In this document: positions 3,668 through 18,014 of the stretch, piece by piece
Numbering within the stretch: position 1 is the stretch's first letter
How the letters are laid out: each line of letters opens with the position of its first letter
From: Sulfitobacter noctilucicola
GTDB lineage: Bacteria; Pseudomonadota; Alphaproteobacteria; Rhodobacterales; Rhodobacteraceae
Direction of reading: 5' to 3'
Length of the DNA: 64,000 bases
Assembly: GCF_000622385.1 (NCBI RefSeq)
Contig: NZ_JASD01000008.1
Location: 992,001 to 1,056,000, forward strand
The notes under the pieces: model-generated
What the model saw: the letters and a program-made list of their open reading frames with translations, nothing else
Databases searched by the model: none
What the model was told of the DNA's origin: nothing
Made by a program: the position numbers and the translations under genes

Positions 3668-3969
3668 ATAATCGTCCCCTCGAAAGATGGTCGCCAAGTC
3701 GTCTGGTAGTTTGCAGAACGAGAGTGCGGATCATGATTGTCTTATCAACGCCTTCGTACATCGGTCGCTTGGGCAAATACAGGCCCATTGATTTCTTTCT
3801 ACCCAATTTCTGACTAGTATGCCAGAATTATAACTAGTATGCTAGTTTTGAGGCTGTCGAATCTAGCTTGTTTGTTAACCGCTGTAGCGGGTGGCTTTGC
3901 TGCTTCACTTCGGGCGAAACTGCATAGATGAACAGCGGCTAACACACAAAGACCACAGGGAGGTTTGCG
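3668..3969. promoter_or_regulatory. Divergent intergenic region between the GntR regulator and the uronate operon
   Basis: These 302 bp hold no convincing gene. They contain two palindromic operators at 3814-3845 (listed separately) and a short dyad CCGCTGTAGCGG near 3880. A purine-rich ribosome site (CACAGGGAGG) lies just before the SDR start at 3970. Clear -35/-10 elements could not be assigned on either strand. Promoters for both divergent units should lie here. Confidence 0.6.
3814..3845. promoter_or_regulatory. Tandem palindromic operators (putative GntR sites 1 and 2)
   Basis: Two 12-bp near-palindromes, CTAGTATGCCAG at 3814-3825 and CTAGTATGCTAG at 3834-3845, have centres exactly 20 bp apart, about two helical turns, so two dimers could bind the same DNA face. 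The same motif recurs before four other uronate transcription units in this window. Its size and central TAT-R-C resemble the TGGTATACCA-type operators of the FCD regulators UxuR and ExuR. That the adjacent GntR protein binds here is an inference. Confidence 0.72.
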
Positions 3970-4713
3970 ATGAAACTGGATGGAAAAACAGCTATTGTTA
4001 CGGGCGGTGGTCGGGATATCGGCAGCGCCGTCGCCATCAAGCTGGCGTCGGAGGGTGCGAATGTTGCGATCAACTATTTCGCAAGCTCCGAAGGGGCTGA
4101 TGCCACTGTGGCAAAGATTGAGGAAGCTGGCGGAAAGGCAATCGCGGTTCAGGGAGATCTGAACAATCAGGCAGATGTCGACACGCTGATCTCCCGGACG
4201 TTGGATGCTTTTGGCAGCATTGACGTACTGGTCAACAACGCCGGCGGATTGATCGCACGCAAAAAGATCGTTGAGATGGAGCTTGAGCACTGGAATGCTG
4301 TGATGACGCTGAACCTCACAAGTACCTTCATGATGACCAAGGCTTGTCTTGCGCATATGAAAACCGGCGCGATCGTCAATCTTGCCAGTCAGGCGGGCCG
4401 CGACGGTGGCGGTCCGGGCGCTGTTGCATACGCTGCATCCAAAGGTGCCGTGATGACGATGACCCGTGGCTTGGCTAAGGAAGTCGGCCCCGAGATCAGG
4501 GTTAATGCTATCTGTCCGGGCATGATCGATACAGATTTTCATAACATTCACACACCAGACGCGGGACGTCGCGGATTTGAAGCAAACGCACCGCTCAAAC
4601 GGCAAGGTCACGTGGAAGACGCGGCAAACCTCGTGCTGTTCCTTGCCTGCGAAGACAGCGCCTTTATCACGGGCACCAACATCGACCTGAACGGCGGTAT
4701 GCTGTTTAGTTAA
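3970..4713 (+). CDS. SDR-family oxidoreductase, candidate DEH (uronate) reductase
   Basis: A 247-residue classical short-chain dehydrogenase. It has a TGGGRDIG nucleotide-binding motif at about residues 11-18, NNAGG, a catalytic Ser in NLASQAG, YAASK with the Tyr-x3-Lys pair, and a PG motif (CPGMIDTDF). It is the first gene of a unit with KdgF, KDG kinase and mannonate dehydratase. A likely role is therefore reduction of 4-deoxy-L-erythro-5-hexoseulose uronate (DEH) to 2-keto-3-deoxygluconate (KDG), as known for SDR enzymes in alginate degraders. A KduD-like activity is an alternative, but a better kduD lies at 14.8-15.6 kb. Substrate is inferred from context only. Confidence 0.75.
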   Translation: MKLDGKTAIVTGGGRDIGSAVAIKLASEGANVAINYFASSEGADATVAKIEEAGGKAIAVQGDLNNQADVDTLISRTLDAFGSIDVLVNNAGGLIARKKIVEMELEHWNAVMTLNLTSTFMMTKACLAHMKTGAIVNLASQAGRDGGGPGAVAYAASKGAVMTMTRGLAKEVGPEIRVNAICPGMIDTDFHNIHTPDAGRRGFEANAPLKRQGHVEDAANLVLFLACEDSAFITGTNIDLNGGMLFS

Positions 4714-4734
4714 GCGCAGGGCAAAGGAGCCGAC

Positions 4735-5046
4735 ATGACAGACTTTCCCGTAGTGCCAACCGGCGAGAACGTGACGCGACAGGTGTTGTCAGATCACCCC
4801 GACCTGATGGTTGTTGCCTTTCGCTTTGCGGCCGAAGGGGCCGTCGGTGCGTTGCATGACCATCACCATGTGCAATCGACATACGTTGAATCAGGGCTTT
4901 TCCGGTTCACCCTCGGAGACGAGCAGCGCGAAGTTGGGCCAGGCGATAGTTTTGTTATTCCAAGCAATCTGACGCATGGCTGTGTATGTCTGGAACCTGG
5001 CACTTTGGTGGATTGCTTCACCCCGCGTCGTGATGATTTTCTATAG
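4735..5046 (+). CDS. kdgF: KdgF-type cupin, unsaturated uronate linearising enzyme
   Basis: A 103-residue single-domain cupin. Metal-ligand motifs are visible as HDHHHVQSTYVESG (cupin motif 1, residues about 41-54) and PSNLTHGC (motif 2). The C-terminus DCFTPRRDDFL matches the KdgF ending 'D.FsP.R.dFl'. KdgF opens the ring of 4,5-unsaturated monouronates released by pectate or alginate lyases, giving DKI or DEH. It sits 21 bp after the SDR gene and 9 bp before kdgK. This neatly supplies the substrate for the reductase and then the kinase. Confidence 0.88.
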   Translation: MTDFPVVPTGENVTRQVLSDHPDLMVVAFRFAAEGAVGALHDHHHVQSTYVESGLFRFTLGDEQREVGPGDSFVIPSNLTHGCVCLEPGTLVDCFTPRRDDFL

Positions 5047-5055
5047 GTTTCCAGC

Positions 5056-5961
5056 ATGAGATTTCTGTCAATCGGCGAGTGTATGGCAGAGATGTCACCG
5101 CAAGAGGAACCGGGTATGTTCCGGCTGGGCTTTGCAGGGGATACGTTCAACACGGCGTGGTATCTGAAACAGGTCGCCCCGCAGATTGAGGTGTCTTATC
5201 TGACGGGTTTGGGGACGGACAAGATTTCAGACCAGTTGCGTGCCACGATAAAAGACGCGGGAATAAACGATACCTATTCGGTGGTGGTTGAAGACAAGAC
5301 GGTCGGTCTTTACCTGATTTCGCTCGACAACGGGGAGCGTAGTTTCTCCTATTGGCGGGGGCAGTCGGCAGCACGCCAGCTTGCGTCTGATCCTTCAGCG
5401 TTGAAGCGTGCGATTGAAGATCACGATGTCATCTATTTCTCTGGCATCACGTTGGCAATTCTGGATGCAGAGGGCCGCGACGCGCTTCTGTCAGCTTTGC
5501 GCGAGGGTCGGAGCGCGGGCAAAAAGATTGCCTTTGATCCGAATCTGCGCCCGCGTCTTTGGGATACACCCGACACGATGCGAAAGGTTACGATGGCTGG
5601 TGCGTCTGTATCTGACCTTCTTCTGCCGTCCTTCGAGGACGAGGCATCCTGGTTTGATGATGCTGATCCCAATGCGACAGCGCAGCGATATCAATCTGCC
5701 AGGGCAGGGACGGTGATTGTCAAAAACGGACCAGATGCAGTTTATTATTGCAGCTCAGACGGTGCCGATACAGTTGAAGTCCCCAAGATCGGCGATGTCG
5801 TGGACACAACTGCAGCAGGCGATAGCTTTAATGCAGCGGTTTTTGCAGGTCTGAATGATGGTCTTGGCTTGGACCGCTGCATCGCTGCTGCCAGCGCGCT
5901 GGCAGGTCAGGTTGTGAAGGCACGGGGCGCATTGGTTCCCGTTGCTAGGCCTAAAACCTAA
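5056..5961 (+). CDS. kdgK: 2-keto-3-deoxygluconate kinase (PfkB family)
   Basis: A 301-residue ribokinase-family sugar kinase. It starts MRFLSIGECMAEM, typical of KDG kinases. The C-terminal ATP/anion-hole motif is DTTAAGDSFNAAVFAGL around residue 250, and the DTTAAGDSF form is characteristic of KdgK, with the second Asp as catalytic base. It phosphorylates KDG to KDPG, the common end product of all uronate branches encoded in this locus. KDPG aldolase, the next step, is not in the window. The gene starts 9 bp after kdgF and ends 11 bp before uxuA, consistent with one operon. Confidence 0.9.
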   Translation: MRFLSIGECMAEMSPQEEPGMFRLGFAGDTFNTAWYLKQVAPQIEVSYLTGLGTDKISDQLRATIKDAGINDTYSVVVEDKTVGLYLISLDNGERSFSYWRGQSAARQLASDPSALKRAIEDHDVIYFSGITLAILDAEGRDALLSALREGRSAGKKIAFDPNLRPRLWDTPDTMRKVTMAGASVSDLLLPSFEDEASWFDDADPNATAQRYQSARAGTVIVKNGPDAVYYCSSDGADTVEVPKIGDVVDTTAAGDSFNAAVFAGLNDGLGLDRCIAAASALAGQVVKARGALVPVARPKT

Positions 5962-5972
5962 AGGTGACATAG

Positions 5973-7121
5973 ATGCGCGAGACATGGCGTTGGTTCGGTG
6001 AGTTCGACCCTATTTCTTTGGATCAGGTGGTTCAAACGGGCGCACAGGGTATCGTCAGCGCACTGCATGCTGTGCCTTACGGGGAAGTTTGGTCGCGAGA
6101 CTCGATTGCGAAACGAAACAGCGAAATCAATGCGGCCGGATTTACATGGGACGTGGTCGAAAGCCTCCCTGTCCATGAAGATATCAAGCGTGGAACTGGT
6201 GATCTGGCGGGGCTGTTTGCAAACTACCGGCAGTCGCTGGCAAATCTGGCCGCAGAGGGCATTCAGACCGTCTGCTACAACTTCATGCCCATTCTGGACT
6301 GGACCCGAACCGATCTAGGGGCAGAGGTCGCTGGCGGAGGAACATGTCTGCATTTTGCGGCATCGAAGATGGCCGCGTTTGAAATCCACATGCTGAAGCG
6401 TGAGGGTGCCCGCGAAGAGTATGCCGCAGATGCTGTCGCTGCGGGAGATGCTTGGTTTGCGCAAGCGAACGATCAGGACTGTGCGGAATTGCTTCATTCG
6501 GTGATGGCCGGCCTGCCCGGGGCATTTGACCGCTATGATGTTCCGGGATTGCGCGATGTACTGAAAACCTATGATGGCATCGCGCACGATGATCTGCGTG
6601 CAAATCTGGTGCGGTTCTTGTCAGAGGTTATACCGGCAGCGGCAGAGCTGGGTATCTCGATGTGCATACATCCAGACGACCCGCCGCGCGATATTCTGGG
6701 CTTGCCTCGCATCGTGTCATCGCAAGATGATATTGATAAGATCCTGAAGGCCATTGATGAACATGCAAACGGACTGACGCTGTGCACTGGATCGCTTGGT
6801 GCTGGACCGCGCAACAATCCTGAGGCTATCGCAAGAGCATTTTCTGATCGTATCCACTTTGCCCATCTGCGCAACGTAACAAAATCGCCGGACGGGTCGT
6901 TCAGTGAGGCTGCTCATCTGTCTGGGGATGTTGATCTTGTGGCTGTGATTGCCGAGCTGTTGGCCGCAGAAAAACGCCGGGGCGTTGATATACCGTTCCG
7001 TCCGGACCACGGGCACGCGTTGTTGTCAGACCACAATACTGAGACCCAACCGGGGTATACGCTGATCGGCAGGTTGCGTGGTCTGGCCGAGCTAAGGGGC
7101 GTCATCTGCGCGCTGAAATGA
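5973..7121 (+). CDS. uxuA: Mannonate dehydratase
   Basis: A 382-residue TIM-barrel enzyme of the UxuA family that dehydrates D-mannonate to KDG in the glucuronate branch. Recognisable segments are the start MRETWRWFGEFDPISL, FTWDVVESLPVHEDIK, the metal-binding CIHPDDPP near residue 230, and RPDHGH near residue 348. Length matches the family. A GGTGACATAG leader supplies a ribosome site. It is the last gene of the SDR-kdgF-kdgK unit; the following gene is preceded by its own operator. The partner reductase (uxuB) is in the opposing operon. Confidence 0.95.
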   Translation: MRETWRWFGEFDPISLDQVVQTGAQGIVSALHAVPYGEVWSRDSIAKRNSEINAAGFTWDVVESLPVHEDIKRGTGDLAGLFANYRQSLANLAAEGIQTVCYNFMPILDWTRTDLGAEVAGGGTCLHFAASKMAAFEIHMLKREGAREEYAADAVAAGDAWFAQANDQDCAELLHSVMAGLPGAFDRYDVPGLRDVLKTYDGIAHDDLRANLVRFLSEVIPAAAELGISMCIHPDDPPRDILGLPRIVSSQDDIDKILKAIDEHANGLTLCTGSLGAGPRNNPEAIARAFSDRIHFAHLRNVTKSPDGSFSEAAHLSGDVDLVAVIAELLAAEKRRGVDIPFRPDHGHALLSDHNTETQPGYTLIGRLRGLAELRGVICALK

Positions 7122-7193
7122 GTCCGTTCATGTGAGCCGTACGGGGTCTAATCTGGGGAACAAAACAATCTAACCTAACTCACAGGTATTACA

Positions 7194-7205
7194 CTGGCAT
7201 ACTAG
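7194..7205. promoter_or_regulatory. Palindromic operator (putative GntR site 3)
   Basis: CTGGCATACTAG is the exact reverse complement of site 1 at 3814-3825. It lies in the 141-bp gap between uxuA and the dehydrogenase gene, 57 bp before that gene's start, so the dehydrogenase probably has its own uronate-controlled promoter. A weaker related stretch, CAGGTATTACAC, lies immediately upstream. Confidence 0.68.
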
Positions 7206-7262
7206 TCGAATATCGTTTACGGTCTTCATCAGAATACAGATCGCACGCTTAGGAGTAGTGAC

Positions 7263-8141
7263 ATGCAAAATCCCGCAATCGGTTTTATCGGCCTCGGTCT
7301 CATGGGTGGCAACATGGTTGAATGCCTTCAAACGAACGGGATTGAGCCGGTGGTCATGAACCGTAGCGAAGCGCCTGTTGCCGCTGCCGTTGCGCGGGGT
7401 GCACGCAGAGCCAAGACTGGGAGAGAGATGGCGTCCGAATGTGATATTATCATGCTCTGCGTCACGACATCGGACGTGGTCGAAGGACTGATGTACGGCG
7501 ACGATGGTATCCTTGCAGGGATCAAAGATGGTACTGTTGTAATTGATTTCGGGACTTCCATTCCTGCTTCTACGCGAAAGATCGGTGCGGATCTTGCGGC
7601 CAAGGGTGCCGGAATGATTGATGCCCCCCTCGGCCGGACACCCGCGCATGCCAAAGACGGATTGTTGAACATCATGGCCGCCGGGGATGAGCAGACATAT
7701 GAGAAAGTGTTACCGGTTCTGAACATATTGGGCGAGAATGTATTCTACCTTGGTGCGCTGGGCGCAGGTCATACCACCAAGCTGATTAATAACTTCATGG
7801 GCATGACCACCGTGACAGCGATGAGTCAGGCTTTTGCTGTAGCGGATCGCGCCGGTGTCGATCGTCAGCAACTTTACGATATCATGTCTGCAGGGCCGTC
7901 CAACTCTCCCTTTATGCAGTTTTGCAAGAAATATGCGGTGGATGATGTGAGCGACCTCGGATTCTCGATTGCTAACGCGAATAAAGACCTCGGCTACTTC
8001 CTTGAGATGGTCAAAGATCTTGGCACACGGTCTGAGATTGCAGAGGGCACGTCCCATAACCTGCAAGCGGCGATTGATGCAGGTATGAGCGACGGAAATG
8101 TGCCCGAAATTTTTGACTATTTCAAAGATCTGAAGGGTTAA
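7263..8141 (+). CDS. NAD(P)-dependent beta-hydroxyacid dehydrogenase (GarR/HIBADH family)
   Basis: A 292-residue two-domain oxidoreductase. The Rossmann motif GFIGLGLMGGNM is at residues 8-19. The substrate-loop motif appears as DAPLGRTPAHAKDG, where the family norm is DAPVSGG-like. The catalytic Lys is in GAGHTTKLINNF near residue 172. Relatives reduce tartronate semialdehyde, 3-hydroxyisobutyrate or, in some marine alginate degraders, DEH. Its own copy of the uronate operator places it in this regulon. A second uronate reductase or a tartronate/glucarate step is possible, and the exact substrate is not decided by sequence. An AGGAGTAGTG ribosome site precedes the ATG. Confidence 0.82.
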   Translation: MQNPAIGFIGLGLMGGNMVECLQTNGIEPVVMNRSEAPVAAAVARGARRAKTGREMASECDIIMLCVTTSDVVEGLMYGDDGILAGIKDGTVVIDFGTSIPASTRKIGADLAAKGAGMIDAPLGRTPAHAKDGLLNIMAAGDEQTYEKVLPVLNILGENVFYLGALGAGHTTKLINNFMGMTTVTAMSQAFAVADRAGVDRQQLYDIMSAGPSNSPFMQFCKKYAVDDVSDLGFSIANANKDLGYFLEMVKDLGTRSEIAEGTSHNLQAAIDAGMSDGNVPEIFDYFKDLKG

Positions 8142-8239
8142 GTTGGCCAGCGGTCGCAAGAATGGCTGCCCGCAAATTTACCCGCCTCACGCAACCCTGT
8201 TTTTATGACGCGCAGAACGAATTCATGCTGGATCGAATT

Positions 8240-8251
8240 CTGGTATGCTAG
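8240..8251. promoter_or_regulatory. Palindromic operator (putative GntR site 4)
   Basis: CTGGTATGCTAG matches the shared motif and sits 56 bp before the redoxin start, almost the same distance as site 3 from its gene. A degenerate half (CATGCTGG) occurs about 21 bp upstream, echoing the 20-bp tandem arrangement at 3814-3845. Confidence 0.66.
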
Positions 8252-8307
8252 TAGCGTAGATAAAGTTGCTCGCGTTTAGCGCGAACAAAGTTTGGAAGGA
8301 GTTCTGT

Positions 8308-8826
8308 ATGCCCACACCAAAACCGGTCCCCGGAAGCATCTTGAGCCCGATGACCTTTATGAGTGTCAAAGGCGGTGAGATCGTCGTTGGGGGCAAATCC
8401 GAAAACTGGACCTTGTTGGTTGTCTATCGGGGCAAACACTGCCCGCGATGCAAGAAGTACCTCAATACATTGAGCGCGATGCACCAGGACTGGGTCGAAG
8501 CCGGTTTTGACATCGTCGTGGTTTCGGCTGATTCGCTTGAGAAGGCCAAAGCCGATCAGGAAGAGTTCGGTTGGAGTTTTGATCTGGGATACGGATTGAC
8601 GGAATCACAGATGGCGACGCTCGGCGTGTATGTGACTGAACCGCTTTCGCCAGACGAAGCCGACGGCAACTTTGCCGAACCTGGCACCTTTGTTCTGCGG
8701 CCTGACGGAAGCCAGATTATCGTTGCAATTTCGAACGGTCCGGCCGTGCGTCCCGACCTTGCCGAGCTATTGGACGGGATGATTTTCAACAAGACGAAGG
8801 ACAGGCCGCACCGCGGAACAGTTTAA
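8308..8826 (+). CDS. Redoxin / AhpC-TSA family protein with CxxC
   Basis: A 172-residue thioredoxin-fold protein of the AhpC/TSA type. The likely redox site is HCPRCKKY near residue 46, a CxxC replacing the single peroxidatic Cys of ordinary peroxiredoxins. It is followed by the fold segments FDIVVVSADSLEKA and GTFVLRPDGSQIIV. No signal peptide is visible, so it should be cytoplasmic. The AAGGAG site 8 bp upstream fixes the start at 8308. The gene stands alone between the dehydrogenase and the transporter and has its own operator of the uronate type. Its role in uronate use is unknown; reactive-carbonyl or peroxide defence is a guess. Confidence 0.8.
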   Translation: MPTPKPVPGSILSPMTFMSVKGGEIVVGGKSENWTLLVVYRGKHCPRCKKYLNTLSAMHQDWVEAGFDIVVVSADSLEKAKADQEEFGWSFDLGYGLTESQMATLGVYVTEPLSPDEADGNFAEPGTFVLRPDGSQIIVAISNGPAVRPDLAELLDGMIFNKTKDRPHRGTV

Positions 8827-8893
8827 GCGATGCCACTGCACGAGCCGGCACGAAATATCGACTGTTCGATTGACTTTTTTCGATAGCTTGATA

Positions 8894-8905
8894 CTAGTAT
8901 ACCTG
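8894..8905. promoter_or_regulatory. Palindromic operator (putative GntR site 5)
   Basis: CTAGTATACCTG lies 68 bp before the start of the TRAP binding-protein gene and differs from site 1 at two positions. It should place the transporter under the same regulator as the catabolic genes. Confidence 0.64.
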
Positions 8906-8973
8906 TTTAGGGGCGATAAAGAATCCAAGTGCAGGATGGCCCTATGACTACAAATTGTATCTGGGAGGATCAC

Positions 8974-9957
8974 ATGACTAAATCATTCACTTTGCGCGGC
9001 GCCCTGCTTGGTAGCTGCCTTGCCCTCGCGGCAACGTCTGTGTCAGCAAAAGAGCTGCGCGGCTGGAATATTCACGTTGAGGATTACCCTGTCTCGATCG
9101 CGATGGAAGCCTTTGCAGACGAAGTATCCGAGCGTACAAACGGCGAGCTTACCGCGAAAACATTCCATAATGGCGTACTGGGCAGTCAGCCTGACGCAAT
9201 TGAACAGCTGCGTCTTGGTGTGCTTGATTTCGGTGAATTCAGCCTTGGTCCATTCGGTACATCGGTACCAGAGGCCAATGTCGTTTCCCTTCCCTTCATC
9301 TTTGCGTCGATTCCCGACATGTACAAACTGATGGACGGTGATGTCGGCGAAGCGATTTCTGAAGGTATGCGTGCACGCGGTGTTGAGCCGTTGGGTTGGT
9401 ATGACGCCGGTGCGCGGTCTTTTTATAATTCCGTCCGTCCGATCAACACGCCGGCAGATGTCGAAGGTCTGAAAATTCGTGTGATGAACAATGATCTGTT
9501 CGTTCAGATGGTTGCCTCCATGGACGGGAACGCAACGCCAATGGCATTCGCCGAAGTGTATCAGTCCATCCAGACGGGTGTTGTTGATGGCGCAGAAAAC
9601 AATCCGCCGTCCTACGAATCCACAAACCACTTCGAAGTGGCAAAGTACTATTCTTTGACAGAGCACCTGATCATTCCCGAGTGTCTATGTATGTCAAAGA
9701 AAACCTACGACAGCCTGACGCCTGAACAGCAGACCATCGTCAAAGAGGCAGGCCGTTCCAGCGCCAATCTTCAGCGCGAGTTGTGGCAGAAGCGTGAAGC
9801 GGCTTCCATGGAAACAGTGAAGGCCGGTGGCACAGAGGTGAACACAGTTGCAGACAAGGGTCCTTTCCAGGCCGCGATGGCACCTGTCTATGACAAGTTC
9901 CTCGCTGACAATCCTGATCTGACCGACCTGGTAAACATGATCCGCAACGCGGAATAA
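8974..9957 (+). CDS. TRAP transporter solute-binding protein, DctP family (putative uronate)
   Basis: A 327-residue periplasmic binding protein with a Sec signal peptide (MTKSFTLRGALLGSCLALAATSVSA, cleavage after residue 25). The mature protein has the DctP pattern: RSFYNSVRPINTPADVEGLKIRV with the substrate-clamping Arg region, and AFAEVYQSIQTGVVDGAENNP, the conserved organic-acid site. A GGGAGG ribosome site supports the start at 8974. It is followed by dctQ and dctM, separated by a stable intercistronic hairpin. The operator upstream and neighbouring genes point to a hexuronate or unsaturated oligouronate ligand. Substrate identity is inferred. Confidence 0.9.
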   Translation: MTKSFTLRGALLGSCLALAATSVSAKELRGWNIHVEDYPVSIAMEAFADEVSERTNGELTAKTFHNGVLGSQPDAIEQLRLGVLDFGEFSLGPFGTSVPEANVVSLPFIFASIPDMYKLMDGDVGEAISEGMRARGVEPLGWYDAGARSFYNSVRPINTPADVEGLKIRVMNNDLFVQMVASMDGNATPMAFAEVYQSIQTGVVDGAENNPPSYESTNHFEVAKYYSLTEHLIIPECLCMSKKTYDSLTPEQQTIVKEAGRSSANLQRELWQKREAASMETVKAGGTEVNTVADKGPFQAAMAPVYDKFLADNPDLTDLVNMIRNAE

Positions 9958-9973
9958 GTTACTAGACTAAAAG

Positions 9974-10007
9974 GGTGGCCCCGACCCCGTTGCGGGATGG
10001 GGCCACC
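9974..10007 (+). other. Intercistronic hairpin between dctP and dctQ
   Basis: A perfect 9-bp stem GGTGGCCCC / GGGGCCACC encloses an inner CCCG-TTG-CGGG helix. No U-run follows, so it is not a simple terminator. Such hairpins after a binding-protein gene commonly stabilise its transcript or attenuate read-through, giving more binding protein than permease. Confidence 0.7.
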
Positions 10008-10039
10008 AGACGACCATTCGTGCAATAAGCGAGGCGACA

Positions 10040-10570
10040 ATGAGCAGACAAAAGGCCCTGCTGGCCCGGTGCGAGACCGTCCTCGCAGCCGTTCAATGGC
10101 TCAGCATTTTTACAGCATCCGTCGCTCTGGTGATTTTGATTGTCACATTTGGTTGGTTGGTTTTTGGTCGTTACGTGTTGAACGTCACTCCAACCTGGGT
10201 TGAACAGCTCGCCCTGATGTTGATCTGCTACATTGCTTTTCTTGGCGCTGGGGCCGGTGTGCGCGATGACACCCACCTTGGTGTTTCGCTTTTCCGTGAT
10301 GCACTGCCTCTGGGGCTTCAGAAACTTATTATCTTGTTTATTGATTTCGTGCTCGCGGCCTTTGGTGCGGTCATGTTCTTTGCAGGGACCGAACTGATGA
10401 AATTCGGTTGGGATTCGCTACTGCCCATGCTCGGCATTCCAGAGAGCTTCCGCACCCTTGCTATTACCCTGTGCGGTGCGCTGATCGTGCTACACGCCGG
10501 ATCGCGGGGCCTGATCCGCCTGCTGACCTACAAAACGTGGGACCCGAATTCTTTCGTGTTGGAGACCTGA
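10040..10570 (+). CDS. TRAP transporter small permease subunit (DctQ)
   Basis: A 176-residue inner-membrane protein with four hydrophobic helices (about residues 15-45, 55-75, 90-120, 133-155). It carries the DctQ motif FGRYVLNVTPTWVEQLALMLICYIAFLGAGAGVRDDTHLGV, with its conserved W-E pair and R-x2-HLGV-type ending. It pairs with the large permease encoded 1 bp downstream. The start ATG at 10040 follows a GAGGCGACA ribosome site. Confidence 0.9.
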   Translation: MSRQKALLARCETVLAAVQWLSIFTASVALVILIVTFGWLVFGRYVLNVTPTWVEQLALMLICYIAFLGAGAGVRDDTHLGVSLFRDALPLGLQKLIILFIDFVLAAFGAVMFFAGTELMKFGWDSLLPMLGIPESFRTLAITLCGALIVLHAGSRGLIRLLTYKTWDPNSFVLET

Positions 10571-10571
10571 G

Positions 10572-11849
10572 ATGGGCCTTTTGATTCTTGCGTTGATCTT
10601 TGGCGGGGGCATCATGTTGGGTGTGCCTGTCGCCTTTGCGATGGGGATCGCGGCCGCGTCTGCCTTCTGGTACGAAGGCTTCCCCATGCTCATCACGTTC
10701 CAGCGTGCAACTGCAGGGGTTTCGGTTTTCTCGCTGCTGGCCATTCCGTTTTTTGTTCTGGCGGGCGAAATCATGCTGCACGGCGGCATCGCCATCCGCC
10801 TTGTGAAACTTGCTTCGGCTCTTGTCGGTCACCTCAAGGGTGGGTTGGCGATGGTCAACATCTTTTCCAGCATGCTCTTTGGCGGCATTTCCGGCTCAGC
10901 CGTCGCTGATATCTCTGCACTTGGGTCGATCCTTGTGCCTGTGATGAAAGAACGGGGGTATCGTCCGGACTTTGCTGTGAACGTAACGGTCACGTCTTCC
11001 ATCGCGGGCGTGGTTATTCCGCCCAGCCATAACATGATCATCTTTGCCGTGGCCGCGGGTGGCGGAATTTCTGTCTCCAGCCTTTTTCTTGCGGGGGTGG
11101 TGCCTGGCATCCTGATGTGTATCAGCCTTGCGATTGCTGCCTACATTCTGTCGGTCAAACACAATTATCCATCCGAGCCTTTCCCCGGTTGGGGCGAAGT
11201 GGCGCGCGCAGCAGCTGATGCTATCCCCGGCTTTATGACGGCAGTTATCATCGTAGGCGGTACGCTGTCCGGCTTGTTTACGGTTACAGAGTCCGGTGCC
11301 TTTGGCGCGATCTACGCGATCCTTTTGACGACCTTTTACTACCGCAGCCTGTCATGGAAGTCATTTGTGACGGCGTTGACAGGGACGGTCCGGACGACCT
11401 CGATGGTAATGATCCTGATCGCCTTCGCAAGTTCGTTTGCCTATCTACTGGCGCTCTATCAGGTGCCTACCCGTCTGAGTAACGCACTGGTTCTGATCTC
11501 TGACAATCCCATCATCATCCTTTTGATGATCAACGTAATTCTGCTGATCCTTGGCATGATTATGGACATGGCTGCGCTGATTCTGATTTGTACGCCGATC
11601 TTCCTGCCGATCGCCAAGGGTCTGGGCATGGATCCCACACAATTCGGCATCATGATGTTGATGAACCTTGGTCTGGGACTCTGTACGCCGCCTGTCGGGA
11701 CTTGTTTGTTTGTCGGCTGTGCTGTCGGCAGGATAAAAATTGAAGAGGCGCTTAAATCGATCTGGCCCTTCTACCTCGCGATTTTGGGCGCACTGATACT
11801 GGTCACGTATGTTCCTGCAATCTCACTCTGGTTGCCATCAATGTTCTAA
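10572..11849 (+). CDS. TRAP transporter large permease subunit (DctM)
   Basis: A 425-residue membrane protein with about 12 transmembrane segments and the DctM signature GGISGSAVADISALGSILVPVM in the first half. LGLCTPPVGTCLFVGCAVG near residue 375 is the second conserved substrate/Na+ region. It forms the Na+-coupled translocation path with DctQ and receives ligand from DctP. It starts 1 bp after dctQ ends and closes the operon; a hairpin follows before the convergent uxaA. Confidence 0.93.
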   Translation: MGLLILALIFGGGIMLGVPVAFAMGIAAASAFWYEGFPMLITFQRATAGVSVFSLLAIPFFVLAGEIMLHGGIAIRLVKLASALVGHLKGGLAMVNIFSSMLFGGISGSAVADISALGSILVPVMKERGYRPDFAVNVTVTSSIAGVVIPPSHNMIIFAVAAGGGISVSSLFLAGVVPGILMCISLAIAAYILSVKHNYPSEPFPGWGEVARAAADAIPGFMTAVIIVGGTLSGLFTVTESGAFGAIYAILLTTFYYRSLSWKSFVTALTGTVRTTSMVMILIAFASSFAYLLALYQVPTRLSNALVLISDNPIIILLMINVILLILGMIMDMAALILICTPIFLPIAKGLGMDPTQFGIMMLMNLGLGLCTPPVGTCLFVGCAVGRIKIEEALKSIWPFYLAILGALILVTYVPAISLWLPSMF

Positions 11850-11856
11850 GTCTGAA

Positions 11857-11879
11857 GCTTGGGTCCATAAGGCCCAAGC
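11857..11879. terminator. Inverted repeat between convergent dctM and uxaA
   Basis: GCTTGGG, a 9-base loop and CCCAAGC form a 7-bp stem that can extend by a G-T pair. It lies in the 41-bp gap between the two converging stop codons. No U-tract is present on either strand, so it may act as a bidirectional, rho-assisted terminator. Confidence 0.5.
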
Positions 11880-11890
11880 CTAAGGTCTAC

Positions 11891-13411
11891 CTACATCACC
11901 GCGCCAAGCTGCCATGGGACAAACTCATGATCCCCTAGGCCCAAAACCTCGCTTTTGGTTCGTCGGCCTGATGCGGTCTCCACGATATGATCAAGGATCT
12001 CCGCACCTTTCTGCGCTATTGATACGTCACCCGAAACGATATCGCCGCAGTTGATATCCATGTCATCGGGCATCTGCGCAAATAGCCGGTCATTTGTGGC
12101 AAGTTTGATAGTCGGTGCAGGTTTGGAGCCGAAAGCGGAGCCGCGTCCGGTGGTGAACACGACAATCTGCGCCCCGCCTGCGATCTGACCTGTCACTGAA
12201 ACCGGGTCATAGCCCGGAGTGTCCATAAATATGAGACCCGACTTGGTCGGCTTCTCGGCGTAAGCGATGACTTCGTTCAGTGGTGTTGAGCCCGATTTAG
12301 CTACCGCACCCAAAGATTTTTCCAGAATGGTAGTGAGTCCACCAGCTTTGTTGCCGGGGCTTGGATTGTTATCCATCGATCCGCCGTGCATCTGCGTGTA
12401 GCCCTCCCACCAGCGCAAACGCGCTGAAAGGTTCGTGCCGGTCCGCTCTGTGTCGACCCTATCAAGCAACAACTGCTCGGCCCCGTAAATCTCGGGCGTT
12501 TCGGACAACATAACCCGCCCGCCATGGCCAACGATCAGATCGCTTGCCGCGCCCAGGGCCGGATTAGCCGAGATACCCGAGTAACCGTCAGAACCACCGC
12601 ACTGCAGTCCGATCGTCAAGGCAGACAGCGGTTGGGGTGTGCGTTCGATTGCGTTGACCGAACTGAGGATTTTCTGAACCTGCGTTACGATCTGCGCGAC
12701 TGTGCTCTGGGTGCCGCCGGCTTCCTGAATGGTGATGCCATGAAAGGGTTGATGGCTGTCGCCTTGGAATTTCTGTTTCATCCGGGCAATTTGCATGACC
12801 TCGCACCCGAGGCCGACAAAAACAGCGGCCCCGACGTTCGGATGCGTGGCATACCCCCAAAGCACCCGTTCAAGCACTTGTGCCCCAAGCCCGTCGGCGT
12901 CCATCCCGCAACCGCCGCCATGGGCGAGCGCGACGACACCGTCGACATTTGGAAAGGCGTCTAGCATACCCGAAGCCCCGATTACGTCAGCTGCCTTACG
13001 GATCACGGTGGCGGAGCAGTTCACGGTCGCAATCAGAGCGATCATATTGCGAGTCCCGACATGACCGCCTTTCCGCAAATAGCCATCAAATGTGCGCGGC
13101 TCTACTAATGGGACCGCAGCGCGGGCGGCTTCCAGATGCTGACCATAGCGGGTGCTTTCGGGGTGCGCCCCAAACCCGCAGTTGTGCGTATGAACATGTT
13201 CACCAAGCGCGATATCCGCAGTGGCAAAGCCGATGACATGCCCTAATTTTCGGATCGGATCACCTGTCGCGATAGGCTGGCGCGCAATCTTGTGGCCAGG
13301 ATTGACAGCAGCGACAAGCGGCACGCCACCCGGAACCACGATGTTACCCGCGGGCGCCTTTCGGGTAAGAACCAGAATGCTGTCGCTGTCTTTGAGAACA
13401 AGATGGCTCAT
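11891..13411 (-). CDS. uxaA: Altronate dehydratase, fused SAF + catalytic domains
   Basis: A 506-residue UxaA-type enzyme that dehydrates D-altronate to KDG in the galacturonate branch. The N-terminal SAF domain (about residues 1-90) has PGHKIARQPIATGDPIRK and HTHNCGFG. The longer dehydratase domain has GTRNMIALIATVNCSATV, GGCGMD, GLGCEVMQ and QCGGSDGYSGI. Length fits the fused form. It overlaps the preceding uxuB by 4 bp and is the last gene of the uxaC operon. Its presence together with UxuA shows that both galacturonate and glucuronate branches are encoded. Confidence 0.93.
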   Translation of the reverse strand: MSHLVLKDSDSILVLTRKAPAGNIVVPGGVPLVAAVNPGHKIARQPIATGDPIRKLGHVIGFATADIALGEHVHTHNCGFGAHPESTRYGQHLEAARAAVPLVEPRTFDGYLRKGGHVGTRNMIALIATVNCSATVIRKAADVIGASGMLDAFPNVDGVVALAHGGGCGMDADGLGAQVLERVLWGYATHPNVGAAVFVGLGCEVMQIARMKQKFQGDSHQPFHGITIQEAGGTQSTVAQIVTQVQKILSSVNAIERTPQPLSALTIGLQCGGSDGYSGISANPALGAASDLIVGHGGRVMLSETPEIYGAEQLLLDRVDTERTGTNLSARLRWWEGYTQMHGGSMDNNPSPGNKAGGLTTILEKSLGAVAKSGSTPLNEVIAYAEKPTKSGLIFMDTPGYDPVSVTGQIAGGAQIVVFTTGRGSAFGSKPAPTIKLATNDRLFAQMPDDMDINCGDIVSGDVSIAQKGAEILDHIVETASGRRTKSEVLGLGDHEFVPWQLGAVM

Positions 13412-14847
13412 GATGTGACCATCCGCTTAACTGCAGCTTTAGCGCCTGAGCGTTCGAGTGTTTCATAACTCTGGACGAGTAGATTACGAAAACGTGTGTC
13501 GCCCGAGAGCGCCTTAGGGAAGATTTCGTCAAACGCTAACAGGGCATCGACTTTGCCTTTGATTGTGGACGCTTCGTCGGTGGCTTGCTTCAGCGCTGGC
13601 GCCAACGGGTCGCGAACATCTATGGCGTTGCCAGCTTCGTCCACCCCGCCGACGTATCGCATCCAGCCCGCAACAGCGAGCGTCAACCCATACGGTACAC
13701 GCCCCGCATCGAGCGAATCTGCGATCGTCCCGAGCAGTCGCTGCGGCAGCTTTTGACTGCCATCCATTCCAATTTGCCATGTCCGGTGTCGTATCGCAGG
13801 GTTTTGGTACCGCGTCTTGAGGTCAGCACAGTAGGCATTCAGGTCCACGCCGTCAGGTGGCTGAAGCGTCGGAATGATTTCTTGCTGCCAGAGCTGTTTA
13901 CACAGCGCAGCATAATGGGGATCCGCGACAGTCTGGGCGATGGTGTCGTACCCTGCGAGATACCCAAGATACGCGAGCGTTGAATGGGTGCCGTTGAGAC
14001 AGCGGAGCTTCATCGTTTCATGCGCGTCCACGCAACTTACGAAAGTGGCACCGGCCTTGTCCCATGCGGGCCGACCTTCAACGAAATTATCTTCGATAAC
14101 CCACTGCCTGAACCCTTCGTGAAAAACGCAGGAAGCATCGTGGTAGCCGGTAATTTCGGCAAGCGCCTCGATGTCCTCTTGAGTGGTGGCGGGTGTAATC
14201 CTGTCCACCATAGTCGAAGGAAAGGTGGTTTCATTTGCGATCCAATTGGCCAGTTCTTTGTCATGCTGCGCCGCAAATTTGATGACGCTTGCACGCGCCA
14301 GTGCGCCGTTAGACGGCATATTATCGCAGGACAAAACGGTGAAAGATCTGCGACCCGCCAAGCGCCGCGCATCGAGCGCTGCGGCGATCAACCCGATAGC
14401 GGAACGCGGATTTCCAGGGTTTGCCAGGTCATGAGCTATGTCGGGGTGGGCCAGATCAAGAGACCCTGTGGCGGGGCTGGTGCAGTACCCTTTTTCGGTG
14501 ATCGTAAGTGATACGATCTTCACATCAGGGTTTGCCATCGCATCAATGGTTTTGCCTGTGTCGTCAGGTGCTAGGATAACTTGCACGATCGATCCGACAA
14601 TACTCGGATCCCAGCCGTCAGGCCCCAATGTCACGGAGGTGAATACGCCGCCCTGTGGTTCCAGTTGCGTGCGGGCGGTCGGGCTACGCATGCTCACGGC
14701 GACTATGCCCCAATTGCCCGGCTCATGGGTCATAGCCTCATCCGTGTAGACAGCATTGAAAGCGCGAAAGAATGCGCCTGGACCAATGTGAACGATGCCG
14801 ATGGCCGGCGCGGGGTTCGTTCTGCAAAGGCGGGGCTTACCGGGCAA
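13408..14847 (-). CDS. uxuB: Mannitol dehydrogenase-family hexuronate reductase (fructuronate reductase-like)
   Basis: A 479-residue NAD-dependent polyol/aldonate dehydrogenase. The Rossmann region is IGIVHIGPGAFFRAF near residue 16, and the catalytic Lys-x5-Asn-x2-His motif is visible in MKLRCLNGTHS around residue 275. The family includes UxuB (fructuronate to mannonate), UxaB (tagaturonate to altronate) and mannitol dehydrogenase. Because UxaC makes both keto-uronates and both dehydratases are present, this single reductase may serve both branches. It overlaps kduD by 11 bp and uxaA by 4 bp. Confidence 0.85.
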   Translation of the reverse strand: MPGKPRLCRTNPAPAIGIVHIGPGAFFRAFNAVYTDEAMTHEPGNWGIVAVSMRSPTARTQLEPQGGVFTSVTLGPDGWDPSIVGSIVQVILAPDDTGKTIDAMANPDVKIVSLTITEKGYCTSPATGSLDLAHPDIAHDLANPGNPRSAIGLIAAALDARRLAGRRSFTVLSCDNMPSNGALARASVIKFAAQHDKELANWIANETTFPSTMVDRITPATTQEDIEALAEITGYHDASCVFHEGFRQWVIEDNFVEGRPAWDKAGATFVSCVDAHETMKLRCLNGTHSTLAYLGYLAGYDTIAQTVADPHYAALCKQLWQQEIIPTLQPPDGVDLNAYCADLKTRYQNPAIRHRTWQIGMDGSQKLPQRLLGTIADSLDAGRVPYGLTLAVAGWMRYVGGVDEAGNAIDVRDPLAPALKQATDEASTIKGKVDALLAFDEIFPKALSGDTRFRNLLVQSYETLERSGAKAAVKRMVTS

Positions 14848-15583
14848 GCCAACCCCCGTCGACGTTCAGGACAGCGCCTGTCACATAGTTGGAGGCACCC
14901 CCGCACAGGAATGTCACCGCACCGGCAATGTCGGCCGGATCACCCCAACGCCCGGCTGGAATACGCGACAGAATTTCCGCGCTACGCTTTGGATCATCGC
15001 GCAGGGCCTGGGTGTTGTTCGTTGAGATGTAGCCCGGGGCCACGGCATTCACATTGATGTTATGGGCGGACCATTCATTGGCGAATAATTTGGTCAACCC
15101 CGCAACACCGTGTTTTGATGCGGTGTAGGCGGGCACGCGGATGCCGCCCTGAAACGACAGAAGCGATGCAATATTCACAATACGCGCGCCTGCTTTGCGT
15201 GCAATCGCGGCGCGGGCAAAAGTCTGACACATCATGAAGACCGCCTTGAGATTGACGTCCATCACATCGTCCCAGTCGGTTTCGGAATAATCAACGCTGT
15301 CGTCGCGCCGGATGATGCCTGCGTTGTTAACAAGTATATCCATATCGCCGATACCTTTGAGGATATCTGCCGCCTTGGCCGGATCAGACAGATCAATTGC
15401 ACAGGCTTCGGCTTGTCCGCCCTGCTGTTCGATCAAGGACACAGTATCATCACACGAAGACCGCCCAGCCGCGATAACGGCGGCACCGGCGTTCGCCAAG
15501 CCCAAGGCAATCGCCTGACCAATGCCGGTGTTGGCACCAGTAACAAACGCACGCTTGCCGTCCAAACGGAACGGATCGTTCAT
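14837..15583 (-). CDS. kduD: 2-dehydro-3-deoxy-D-gluconate 5-dehydrogenase (KduD-like SDR)
   Basis: A 248-residue SDR with TGANTGIG at residues 15-22, NNAGI, NIASLLS with the catalytic Ser, and YTASKHG with Tyr-x3-Lys. MNDPFRLDGKRAFVTGANTGIGQA is close to the usual KduD beginning, and the ending VNVDGGWLAR is typical. It reduces 2,5-diketo-3-deoxygluconate to KDG after KduI in the unsaturated-uronate pathway. The start overlaps the kduI stop by 4 bp, supporting translational coupling. Confidence 0.9.
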   Translation of the reverse strand: MNDPFRLDGKRAFVTGANTGIGQAIALGLANAGAAVIAAGRSSCDDTVSLIEQQGGQAEACAIDLSDPAKAADILKGIGDMDILVNNAGIIRRDDSVDYSETDWDDVMDVNLKAVFMMCQTFARAAIARKAGARIVNIASLLSFQGGIRVPAYTASKHGVAGLTKLFANEWSAHNINVNAVAPGYISTNNTQALRDDPKRSAEILSRIPAGRWGDPADIAGAVTFLCGGASNYVTGAVLNVDGGWLAR

Positions 15584-16401
15584 CGCAGATCCTCCATCGC
15601 GACCATGTCCATATCAGTGAAATCGACGTTATCACCGGCCATCGCCCAGCAGAACGTATAAGAAGCAGTACCCGCACCGCAGTGGATGGACCAAGGCGGC
15701 GAAATTACAGCCTCTTCATTCGCCATAACGATGTGGCGGGTTTCTTCTGGTGTACCCATGATGTGGAACACACGCTGATCCTGCGGGACGTCGAAATAGA
15801 GGTATGCCTCCATCCTCCGGTCATGCACATGCGCGGGCATTGTGTTCCAGACAGAGCCGGGCGCGAATTGCGTATATCCCATCAAGAGCTGACAGCTTTC
15901 GCAGACATCGGGGTGCAGGAACTGGATGATCACCCGCTCGTTTGCCGTCTCGCGGGCGCCCATTTCGATCCGGCGCGCGTCGGCCAGCGTAATGAGCTTG
16001 GTCGGACAAGTGCGATGGGCCGGTGCGGACAGCAGATAAAAGCGACCGCTTTCCAGCGTCACCGGCCCTGCGCCCATCCCGATATAGAGAACTTCGCCAT
16101 TGCCAACCTGATGCGTCTGCCCGCCCACCGTGATTGTGCCAGCATCGCCCAGGTTCAGCGCCGCCATTTCGCGCCTTTCCAGAAAGGTCGAGGTGCCCGT
16201 TTCAGCAACATTATCCAGAACCAGCGGACCGCTTGCAGGCACGGCAGACCCCATGATCAAACGGTCGTAGTGAGAGTAGACCAGCCGGATTTCGTCTTCG
16301 GCGAATAAATCGCTGACGTGGAAATGATCGCGCAACTTGGCGGTATCAAAGGTCTTGGCCGTTTCGGGATCAATGGCGTATCGGGTCTGTACGTGGGTCA
16401 T
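15580..16401 (-). CDS. kduI: 5-keto-4-deoxyuronate isomerase
   Basis: A 273-residue bicupin of the KduI family that isomerises DKI (4-deoxy-L-threo-5-hexosulose uronate) to 2,5-diketo-3-deoxygluconate. The Zn site is visible as PAHVHDRRMEAYLYF (His, His and Glu, near residue 196) and SIHCGAG near residue 243. GVRETANERVI-like and WNTMPAHVHDRR segments are diagnostic. It lies 15 bp after uxaC in the same operon. Confidence 0.95.
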   Translation of the reverse strand: MTHVQTRYAIDPETAKTFDTAKLRDHFHVSDLFAEDEIRLVYSHYDRLIMGSAVPASGPLVLDNVAETGTSTFLERREMAALNLGDAGTITVGGQTHQVGNGEVLYIGMGAGPVTLESGRFYLLSAPAHRTCPTKLITLADARRIEMGARETANERVIIQFLHPDVCESCQLLMGYTQFAPGSVWNTMPAHVHDRRMEAYLYFDVPQDQRVFHIMGTPEETRHIVMANEEAVISPPWSIHCGAGTASYTFCWAMAGDNVDFTDMDMVAMEDLR

Positions 16402-16416
16402 GGAAGGGCTTTCAAA

Positions 16417-17823
16417 TCAAAGGTTATAGGCGGTTTTTGCAAGGCCGTAAGCAAGGTCATGGGCCACTTCAAAGGCCTCCGCTTCACGCAGGCGGCCTGT
16501 TGTCACAAGTGTCGAAAGGTAGGCGCAATCCGAGCGCCGGGACACATCATGTCGCGCAGGGATCGAGCAGAACGCTCGGGTGTCATCGTTGAAACCTGCG
16601 GTGTTGTAGAAACCGCAGGTTTCGGTGGTTGCTTCGCGGAACCGTTTAATTCCCTCAAAGCTGTCATAAAACCACCATGGCGGTCCCAGTTTCAGCGCCG
16701 GATAGACACCGGCCAGCGGGGCTAGTTCTCGCGCATAAACTGTTTCGTCCAGCGTAAACAGGATCACGGTGAGGTTGGGGTCCATACCTACAGCATCAAG
16801 AAGCGGTTTGAGCGCTTGCACATAGTCCGTCCGGCCGGGAATATCGAAACCCTTGTCCCTGCCGAATTGTGCAAGCACACCGGCGCTGTGGTTGCGTCGC
16901 GATCCTGCGTGAATTTGGAGGGTGAGCCCGTCTTCAAGGCTCATTTTAGCCATCTCGGTCAGCATCTGTCCGCGAAAAACCTCGGCTTGTCGGGGGGTGA
17001 ATGCGCCAGACAAAATGGTCTGAAAAAGATCGGCTGCTGTCGCTGCGTCAAGATTTTCAGTTGCAGCGCTGGGGTGGCCGTGGTCGGTAGCGGTCGCGCC
17101 GTGCTTCTTGAAATAGTCCCGCCGCAAGCGGTGAGCTTCAAGATACCCTGACCATGTGCTGGTGTCCTGTTGGGTCAAAGCGCCAAACGTCGCAACGTTT
17201 TCGGCAAAGCCATCGAAATCAGGATCAACAACCGCGTCGGGGCGGTAGGTGGTAATCACCTTTCCTGACCAATCGCTATCTTTAATCATCTGATGCCATT
17301 TCAGATCATCCAGCGGACCTTCGGTCGTCGCGAGCGTTTCAATATTGAAGCGGTCGAACAGCGCGCGTGGACGGAAGGCTTCTGTTGCCAGTTGGCCCTC
17401 GATGCTATCGTAGATCGCATTGGCGGATTCTGCGTTTAGCACCTCGTCTATGCCGAAAGTATGCTCGAACGCATGTTCGAGCCATAAGGAAGAGGGCGTG
17501 CCCCGGAAGAGCGAGAACGCGCTTGCAAAGCGGTGCCAGATCTTGCGCGGGTCAGCTTCCACTGGGCTGCCGTCAACGCGGGGAATGCCCAAGTCGGCCA
17601 AAGGCATACCCTGACTGACCAGCATCCGGAAAACATAGTGGTCGGGGATGACAAAAAGCTCTGCGGGATTCGGAAAGCGCGCGTTTTCTGCAAACCACCT
17701 AGGGTCGCAATGGCCATGCGGGCTGACAATTGGCAGGCCTGAAACGGTTGCGTAAAGCGCCCGCGCTAAATCGCGCTGCTTTTCATTTACCGGGAAAAGA
17801 CGATCCGGATCTGTCAAAGGCAC
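16417..17823 (-). CDS. uxaC: Glucuronate/galacturonate isomerase
   Basis: A 468-residue amidohydrolase-fold isomerase converting glucuronate to fructuronate and galacturonate to tagaturonate. The metal motif SPHGHCDP near residue 34, WLEHAFEHTFGI, LQIHAGSRRNH near residue 297 and PARHDVSRR near the C-terminus are family hallmarks. The start is GTG at 17821-17823, which allows full-length family alignment, with a GGTGAG-type site about 9 nt upstream. It leads the five-gene operon; a cluster of operator-like palindromes ends 15 bp before its start. Confidence 0.94.
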   Translation of the reverse strand: MPLTDPDRLFPVNEKQRDLARALYATVSGLPIVSPHGHCDPRWFAENARFPNPAELFVIPDHYVFRMLVSQGMPLADLGIPRVDGSPVEADPRKIWHRFASAFSLFRGTPSSLWLEHAFEHTFGIDEVLNAESANAIYDSIEGQLATEAFRPRALFDRFNIETLATTEGPLDDLKWHQMIKDSDWSGKVITTYRPDAVVDPDFDGFAENVATFGALTQQDTSTWSGYLEAHRLRRDYFKKHGATATDHGHPSAATENLDAATAADLFQTILSGAFTPRQAEVFRGQMLTEMAKMSLEDGLTLQIHAGSRRNHSAGVLAQFGRDKGFDIPGRTDYVQALKPLLDAVGMDPNLTVILFTLDETVYARELAPLAGVYPALKLGPPWWFYDSFEGIKRFREATTETCGFYNTAGFNDDTRAFCSIPARHDVSRRSDCAYLSTLVTTGRLREAEAFEVAHDLAYGLAKTAYNL

Positions 17824-17837
17824 AGCAGAAATCTCAC

Positions 17838-17866
17838 CTAGTTATTCTAGTATTCTAATATGCTAG
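17838..17866. promoter_or_regulatory. Operator cluster in front of uxaC (putative GntR site 6)
   Basis: CTAATATGCTAG at 17855-17866 fits the shared palindrome with one change. It is preceded by overlapping variants, CTAGTATTCTAA at 17847-17858 and CTAGTTATTCTAG at 17838-17850. The cluster lies 15-43 bp ahead of the GTG start, close enough to cover the promoter or transcript start. A repressor here would block the whole uxaC-kduI-kduD-uxuB-uxaA operon. Confidence 0.66.
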
Positions 17867-18014
17867 ATGAGCATCTGAGTCAAAGACTAACCGGCCAATC
17901 CGCCCGGTCAGACGAGGACTTGGAGGGCTGGCGACAAGCGCATTCTCCTCGTAGCAGGGATGGACGTAAATCGTCGATTAGTCACCAAACTGTAAGCTGC
18001 GAATATTCTCTCAC

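Follow-up and report, generated by a model that had tools for sequence, protein, structure and literature searches.

Several described systems connect GntR-family regulators with the catabolism of uronates or alginate. In the Rhodobacteraceae bins 08 and 18, a glucuronate regulon governed by a GntR-type regulator named 'UxuR' has been predicted by comparative genomics (PMC5507952, in part). Zobellia AusR is described as a GntR-family repressor of alginate catabolism that is released by sentry-lyase oligosaccharides, and AlgO is listed as the alginate regulator of Sphingomonas A1 (passages of PMC8286568). The alginate operon of Falsirhodobacter sp. alg1 comprises an ATP-binding cassette (ABC) importer, a PL15 oligoalginate lyase and a DehR-like gene (passages of PMC4866713). 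Operators of the FadR subfamily of GntR proteins are given the form N-GT-Nx-AC-N, in which x is mostly 3 and in some groups 2, and UxuR is placed in this subfamily with a 2-nt spacing between GT and AC (passages of PMC4494728). Here we analyze a stretch of 64,000 nucleotides from the genome of Sulfitobacter noctilucicola (the window), in which near-identical 12-bp palindromes precede the transcription units of a uronate gene cluster that also encodes a GntR-type regulator with an FCD domain. We consider it very probable that the palindromes are operators of this adjacent regulator, which would most likely be a repressor that blocks the promoters and is relieved by 2-keto-3-deoxygluconate (KDG).

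Palindromic sites in the window and in the genome

Six palindromes had been predicted in the window, at the positions of the operators in Table 1 (the sixth at 17855-17866), and all were found exactly there, the first and third being precisely identical as reverse complements. All six (6/6) lie between genes, as had been claimed, in a region (2975-18014) whose intergenic share is only ~1.1 of 15.0 kb by arithmetic from the gene coordinates. With up to two mismatches, CTAGTATRCYAG gives 16 strand-matches in the window versus 4.3 expected from shuffles, among which the maximum was 13 and 0/100 attained 16. The palindromes do appear to mark transcription units, but the number of units has to be raised from five to six, because the pair at 3814 and 3834 also faces the divergent gntR gene. 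The sixth operator, upstream of the uxaC-kduI-kduD-uxuB-uxaA operon, includes an overlapping seventh element, CTAGTATTCTAA, at 17847-17858, with two mismatches; under a matrix derived from 195 sites in relatives this element outscores the 17855 site (13.6 versus 10.4), so that the uxaC operator is more aptly taken as a single 20-bp element. CTAG/CTAA units are repeated at intervals of 8 to 9 bp in front of uxaC (17838-17866), a spacing that gives overlapping operators, unlike the 20-bp pairs elsewhere. A one-mismatch match at 12961, inside the uxaA-like gene, was rejected on score (8.3) and position and looks like a chance occurrence.

A whole-genome scan, which the original prediction had proposed as a check, points back to the uronate cluster. 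All four exact occurrences of CTRGYATRCYAG in the 4.09-Mb genome fall within the cluster (4/4), and one mismatch or fewer gives 41 sites, 7 in the cluster and 34 elsewhere. When the matrix was applied to all 34 off-cluster sites, a single one exceeded 9.4; of the six in the cluster, five have scores of 16.3-18.4, the sixth and its overlapping partner having the lower values given above. The exception (C8:1518426, CTGGAATGCTAG, score 14.4) was rejected as lying inside a 337-codon open frame. Stop-to-stop frames of at least 100 codons enclose 33/34 off-cluster sites, which is no proof of coding, because one of the 33, before a BCP peroxiredoxin gene, lies upstream of the start codon. That intergenic site (C5:100128, CTGACATACTAG, score 9.4) was rejected as an extra regulon member and is read as a promoter -10 element. 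The copy in the own genome has CTTGGC 17 bases before TAGTAT, and the box CTA[GC]TATGNCAG is kept in 16/24 copies from the genus (L158-L181, own included), the other 8/24 having a variant such as CTACTATGCCAT or GCAGTATGACAG; the box is also kept in genomes of the genus that have no gntR match (e.g., G055). It is probably a -10 element with a resemblance to one half of the GntR operator. No convincing extra operator was found among the 34 off-cluster one-mismatch sites, and the regulon appears to be confined to the uronate cluster down to one mismatch from CTRGYATRCYAG; its description as complete holds to that limit.

The regulator and its relatives

An N-terminal GntR winged helix (PF00392, 3.2e-15) and a C-terminal FCD domain (PF07729, 1.1e-21), both above cut-off, give the regulator the domain composition of the FadR (FCD) subfamily; the NCBIfam models that match it all score far below their own cut-offs. 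A profile search in named genomes yielded 80 related loci, two with too little upstream DNA and 78 usable. A site with at most one mismatch to CTRGTATACYAG lies within 400 bp upstream of gntR in 65 of the 78 usable loci, versus 0/78 in first-order simulated sequences, and all 80 loci (1.47 Mb) together hold 195 sites versus 8 for the reversed pattern. Where sites follow one another in the relatives, 38 of 54 pairs show the 20-bp spacing that is seen in the window. By a rough clustering of open reading frames, 25 of 27 related loci with a DctP-cluster gene have a site near it; the same is true of uxaC in 2 of 3 loci (window excluded in both cases) and of an AlgS-like ATPase gene in 39 of 47. 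A motif-first search with the 20-bp tandem pattern found 13 places in 12 of 295 genomes of the family (own included) and none in the control; a gntR homologue lies in the 3-kb locus at 11/13 of these places and an AlgS or short-chain dehydrogenase/reductase (SDR) gene at 13/13. That the sites travel with the gntR orthologue across relatives agrees with the earlier proposal of the adjacent FCD-type GntR protein as the candidate binder.

Comparison of orthologous promoters, also proposed as a check, found the sites conserved. The regulator is patchy in the genus (9/62 genomes at E <= 1e-50), and a second genome of the genus, G150, carries a locus (L198) in which the genes, without uxuA and uxaA, stand in almost the same order and each unit is preceded by a site. 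In alignments of five intergenic regions of L198 with the window (with the redoxin region represented by the final 278 bases of the gap in L198), operator bases are identical at 71 of 72 positions and those outside at 420 of 875; operators 1 and 2 are 19 bp apart in L198 and 20 in the window. Two additional GntR homologues (39% and 44%) are encoded directly past uxaC in the same locus (L198:16771-18265).

The commonest partners of gntR in the relatives are oligoalginate genes, for an AlgQ-like ABC importer, a PL15 lyase, reductases of 4-deoxy-L-erythro-5-hexoseulose uronate (DEH), KdgF and KdgK, so that the name "uronate regulon" applies to a single branch of a larger family. The ABC binding protein of these loci is near AlgQ1/AlgQ2 (E 3e-153), the lyase matches the PL15 oligoalginate lyase 3a0o (1051 bits; Pfam DUF4962 and Hepar_II_III_C), and many of the loci also hold the same SDR, GarR-like, KdgF and KdgK genes as the window. 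Classified by neighbour genes, 84 gntR rows comprise 55 of alginate type, 20 with only a tripartite ATP-independent periplasmic (TRAP) transporter, 6 of hexuronate type and 3 with neither; these labels are lower bounds, because at most 10 kb per side was covered. In the gntR tree, whose bootstrap had not settled, the window belongs to an 8-row set (97/96) of five hexuronate, two TRAP-only and one alginate loci, and the alginate label changes at least 6 times on well-supported branches. The regulator-operator pair would be a Rhodobacteraceae oligoalginate/uronate switch, attached here to monomer uptake. Two of the records deserve separate mention: in one locus, under the title Magnetovibrio sp. 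SP26, gntR is almost the same (in the tree) as in Sulfitobacter dubius and the sites are close to those of that species (L079/L081), from either recent transfer or mis-binning, and a record titled Enemella evansiae (Actinomycetota; L152) carries a Rhodobacteraceae-like gntR/TRAP locus and is likely mislabelled.

Promoter geometry, mechanism and alternatives

Among 34 DctP sites, which are related rather than independent sequences, TTGA begins 9 bp ahead of the site in 20 and 25 bp ahead in 7 (27/34 in total), and in the window TTGACT (8870-8875) starts 24 bp before the start of operator 5. On the minus strand at uxaC, the arrangement TTGACW, 17 bases, TATTAG is common by eye to the window and L198, and the TATTAG hexamer falls inside the operator. 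Because the operator overlaps the -35/-10 spacer or the -10 region at DctP and uxaC, repression by promoter blocking suggests itself. A GntR dimer would sit on each palindrome as a repressor; bound in the spacer or on the -10 region of the TRAP promoter it would block RNA polymerase, and at gntR it would be autoregulatory. The inducer would most likely be KDG, which is the simplest candidate because every encoded branch leads to it: the glucuronate branch through UxaC, UxuB and UxuA, the galacturonate branch through the UxaA-like dehydratase, the KduI-KduD branch, and KdgF with two probable DEH reductases. KdgK would then remove the KDG. The analysis shows where the sites lie, that they are conserved and specific within the genome, and that they co-occur with gntR; binding, repression, effector and substrates are what we infer.

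Several observations weigh against this interpretation. Window site 6 scores low by itself (10.4), none of the sites coincides with a promoter in a generic sigma-70 scan (4 found, 9.2 expected), and the choice of repression over activation derives from operator position only, as that of KDG as effector does from pathway logic only. In 13 of the 78 relatives the DNA directly upstream of gntR contains no site, nine of these 13 loci having exact CTAGTATRCYAG elsewhere in the DNA examined; exact CTAGTATRCYAG occurs nowhere in the examined DNA of L139, L142, L151 and L152, the last of which has a one-mismatch site before DctP. Only 24/62 SDR and 6/34 GarR-like genes of the relatives have a site of their own, because operon order varies. 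Sites are also missing from the locus of a 56% homologue (L062) and, at up to one mismatch in the 20 kb taken, from those of homologues in the genus itself (L204 and L205, 47-49% identity).

The alternative that survives best concerns the inducer, which could be DEH or an unsaturated uronate instead of KDG. KdgF and two probable DEH reductases belong to the regulon and oligoalginate genes are common in the relatives, and we regard this as a real possibility, if clearly the less likely one. Hexuronates yield KDG, not DEH, and in the own genome the operator precedes hexuronate genes, the KduI/KduD genes and a TRAP importer. AlgQ was not found there by a search that was positive in two control genomes, nor GH88 by one positive in 3/14 control genomes, nor PL15 by one without a positive control. 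As none of the three was found, any DEH would have to be supplied from outside or by lyases of families other than PL15 and GH88, the two that were searched.

It is unlikely that GntR acts as an activator, or as both activator and repressor. In favour of such a role, the nearer gntR/SDR site in the window stands ~125 bp from the SDR start codon, beyond what a simple roadblock needs; against it, the DctP site overlaps the likely core promoter, and the GntR-type NanR of E. coli is described as a repressor (PMC8012715, in part). We think it quite improbable, too, that another FCD-type paralogue or a general uronate regulator binds the palindromes and that the neighbouring gntR is coincidental. 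Operators of the FadR subfamily are reported to resemble one another (PMC4494728, in part), and some relatives have two gntR genes in one locus (e.g., L057, L198), but the sites track the adjacent gntR across relatives and the own genome has a single match to the regulator at E <= 1e-30. That the sites are merely core promoter elements (TAGTAT-like -10 boxes) is very hard to credit: the BCP-upstream match does appear to be such a TA[GC]TAT box, kept where gntR has no match (G055), but in the cluster sites conservation extends to both arms of the palindrome, the sites stand in tandem at 20 bp, and at DctP they often fall between TTGA and a likely -10, none of which suits a -10 box.

Genes of the cluster and comparison with known systems

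Gene calls (Table 1) were made from NCBIfam and Pfam. The exact substrates of KdgK, UxuB and the UxaA-like protein are less sure, because their scores do not reach the NCBIfam cut-offs for the models in question. The PDB chains nearest to DctP are 4pf8, 4ovq and 4p1l, whose ligands we take to be uronates. None of the entry codes sought for TRAP structures was found in PMC7660916. A-type DEH reductases are described as 3-hydroxyisobutyrate dehydrogenase/GarR-like enzymes (PMC7874173, in part), and the GarR-like DehR-2 of Vibrio sp. C42 is reported to convert DEH to KDG (PMC13390454, in part); the 7263..8141 product, a protein of this type within an alginate/uronate cluster, is a probable A-type DEH reductase.

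Table 1. Regulator, operators and genes of the uronate cluster (window coordinates)
Feature	Coordinates	Strand	Evidence or remark
GntR/FCD regulator, 230 aa, proposed repressor	2975..3667	-	Pfam FCD and GntR; same operator at most orthologues
Operator 1, CTAGTATGCCAG	3814..3825	.	12/12 identical in L198; score 17.5
Operator 2, CTAGTATGCTAG	3834..3845	.	Between gntR and the divergent SDR operon, at 20 bp from operator 1; 12/12 identical in L198
SDR oxidoreductase, probable DEH reductase	3970..4713	+	NCBIfam SDR; same gene beside PL15/AlgQ in relatives
KdgF-like cupin	4735..5046	+	PDB KdgF 5fq0, E 5e-20; Cupin_2
2-keto-3-deoxygluconate kinase (KdgK)	5056..5961	+	NF052444, 225 bits, under 400-bit cut-off
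Mannonate dehydratase (UxuA)	5973..7121	+	TIGR00695, 444 bits, above cut-off
Operator 3, CTGGCATACTAG	7194..7205	.	Before GarR-like reductase; 11/12 identical in L198
GarR/3-hydroxyisobutyrate dehydrogenase-like reductase, probable A-type DEH reductase	7263..8141	+	Domain matches; PMC7874173, PMC13390454 (in part)
Operator 4, CTGGTATGCTAG	8240..8251	.	Before redoxin; 12/12 identical in L198
AhpC/TSA-type redoxin, invariant CPRC motif	8308..8826	+	Pfam; recurs in related loci
Operator 5, CTAGTATACCTG	8894..8905	.	Before TRAP genes DctPQM; 12/12 identical in L198
TRAP solute-binding protein DctP, putatively hexuronate-type	8974..9957	+	Nearest PDB 4pf8, E 3e-152
TRAP small permease DctQ	10040..10570	+	Weak YiaM match, 22 bits; position between DctP and DctM
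TRAP large permease DctM	10572..11849	+	TIGR00786, 437 bits, above cut-off
Altronate/galactarate dehydratase family (UxaA-like)	11891..13411	-	Pfam GD_AH_C, 3.8e-101
Fructuronate reductase (UxuB)	13408..14847	-	NF011611, 467 bits, under 603-bit cut-off
KduD	14837..15583	-	TIGR01832, 376 bits, above cut-off
KduI	15580..16401	-	NF002091, 405 bits, above cut-off
Glucuronate isomerase (UxaC)	16417..17823	-	NF002794, 550 bits, above cut-off
Operator 6, composite CTAGTATTCTAATATGCTAG	17847..17866	.	Overlapping elements 17847-17858 and 17855-17866; 20/20 bases identical in L198

The redoxin belongs to a cluster of 16 proteins, the window's included, that recurs in these loci; a second search found it in 18 of 83 related loci, with the operator directly before it in 4, and in some other loci it stands right behind gntR (L202). 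The CPRC motif is invariant in 12 aligned redoxins. A sequence comparison with the PDB gave no relative of the protein at E <= 0.001, and its structure model (mean predicted local distance difference test score 71, poor over the last 32 residues) matches both peroxiredoxins and thioredoxin folds of the ResA type and indicates no specific function. Judging by its neighbourhoods, the redoxin appears to be a recurrent member of the regulon and not a stray gene, which would assign it to uronate metabolism. Adjoining the cluster, 18015-20735 (minus strand) encodes a protein of 906 aa in which RTX calcium-binding repeats are matched in 12 stretches, and none of the operator sites with up to one mismatch lies before this gene. 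Upstream of the cluster, at 102-2314, a TIGR01244-type sulfur transferase gene stands beside one for a SulP-family permease.

For the use of uronates and alginate by the Rhodobacteraceae, which are major consumers of marine algal sugars, the system offers an operator that can be tested and a candidate regulator, and CTRGTATACYAG, often paired at 20 bp, serves as a genome-wide tag that finds such loci without prior annotation. We suggest, tentatively and with some doubt, that a KDG-sensing GntR protein and CTRGTATACYAG may form a general algal-uronate switch of marine Rhodobacteraceae, in which the metabolic load (an oligoalginate ABC importer with PL15, or a hexuronate TRAP transporter with UxaC) has been repeatedly exchanged and the switch has stayed constant, and that the CPRC redoxin may protect from the reactive dicarbonyl DEH or its products.

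The consensus of the relatives, CTRGTATACYAG, reads GT-AT-AC and so conforms to the description of FadR-subfamily operators; in the window, most sites depart from it in one of the arms, with GC in place of AC or of GT. E. coli UxuR and ExuR are GntR-family repressors (by annotation) of the same pathway, and the window operators precede operons with homologues of uxaC, uxuA and uxuB; UxuR and ExuR show no significant full-length similarity to the window regulator (best pairwise blastp E 0.01, across 50 aa, and 0.02, across 74 aa) and are not its orthologues. Upstream of K-12 uxuA there are matches such as TGTGGTTAACCAAT (3 mismatches to the pattern), which are presumably UxuR sites, and not CTRGTATACYAG. 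No UxuR consensus was found in PMC9369180, and among open-licence papers the string CTAGTATACTAG brought up a single paper, which deals with plants and is unrelated. Zobellia AusR and Sphingomonas AlgO are likened to the window regulator by their description (parts of PMC8286568). The Falsirhodobacter sp. alg1 operon resembles the loci of the relatives, whereas the window has no importer or lyase of that type; the passages of PMC4866713 name neither regulator nor operator for it. The 'UxuR' regulon of PMC5507952, as described there in part, shares with the present one the bacterial family, a GntR-family regulator and the UxaC-to-KDG pathway, and differs in including a novel ABC transporter, a comparison made by description. 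Given that prediction, this kind of regulon was already known, and the one described here is well supported and ordinary in kind.

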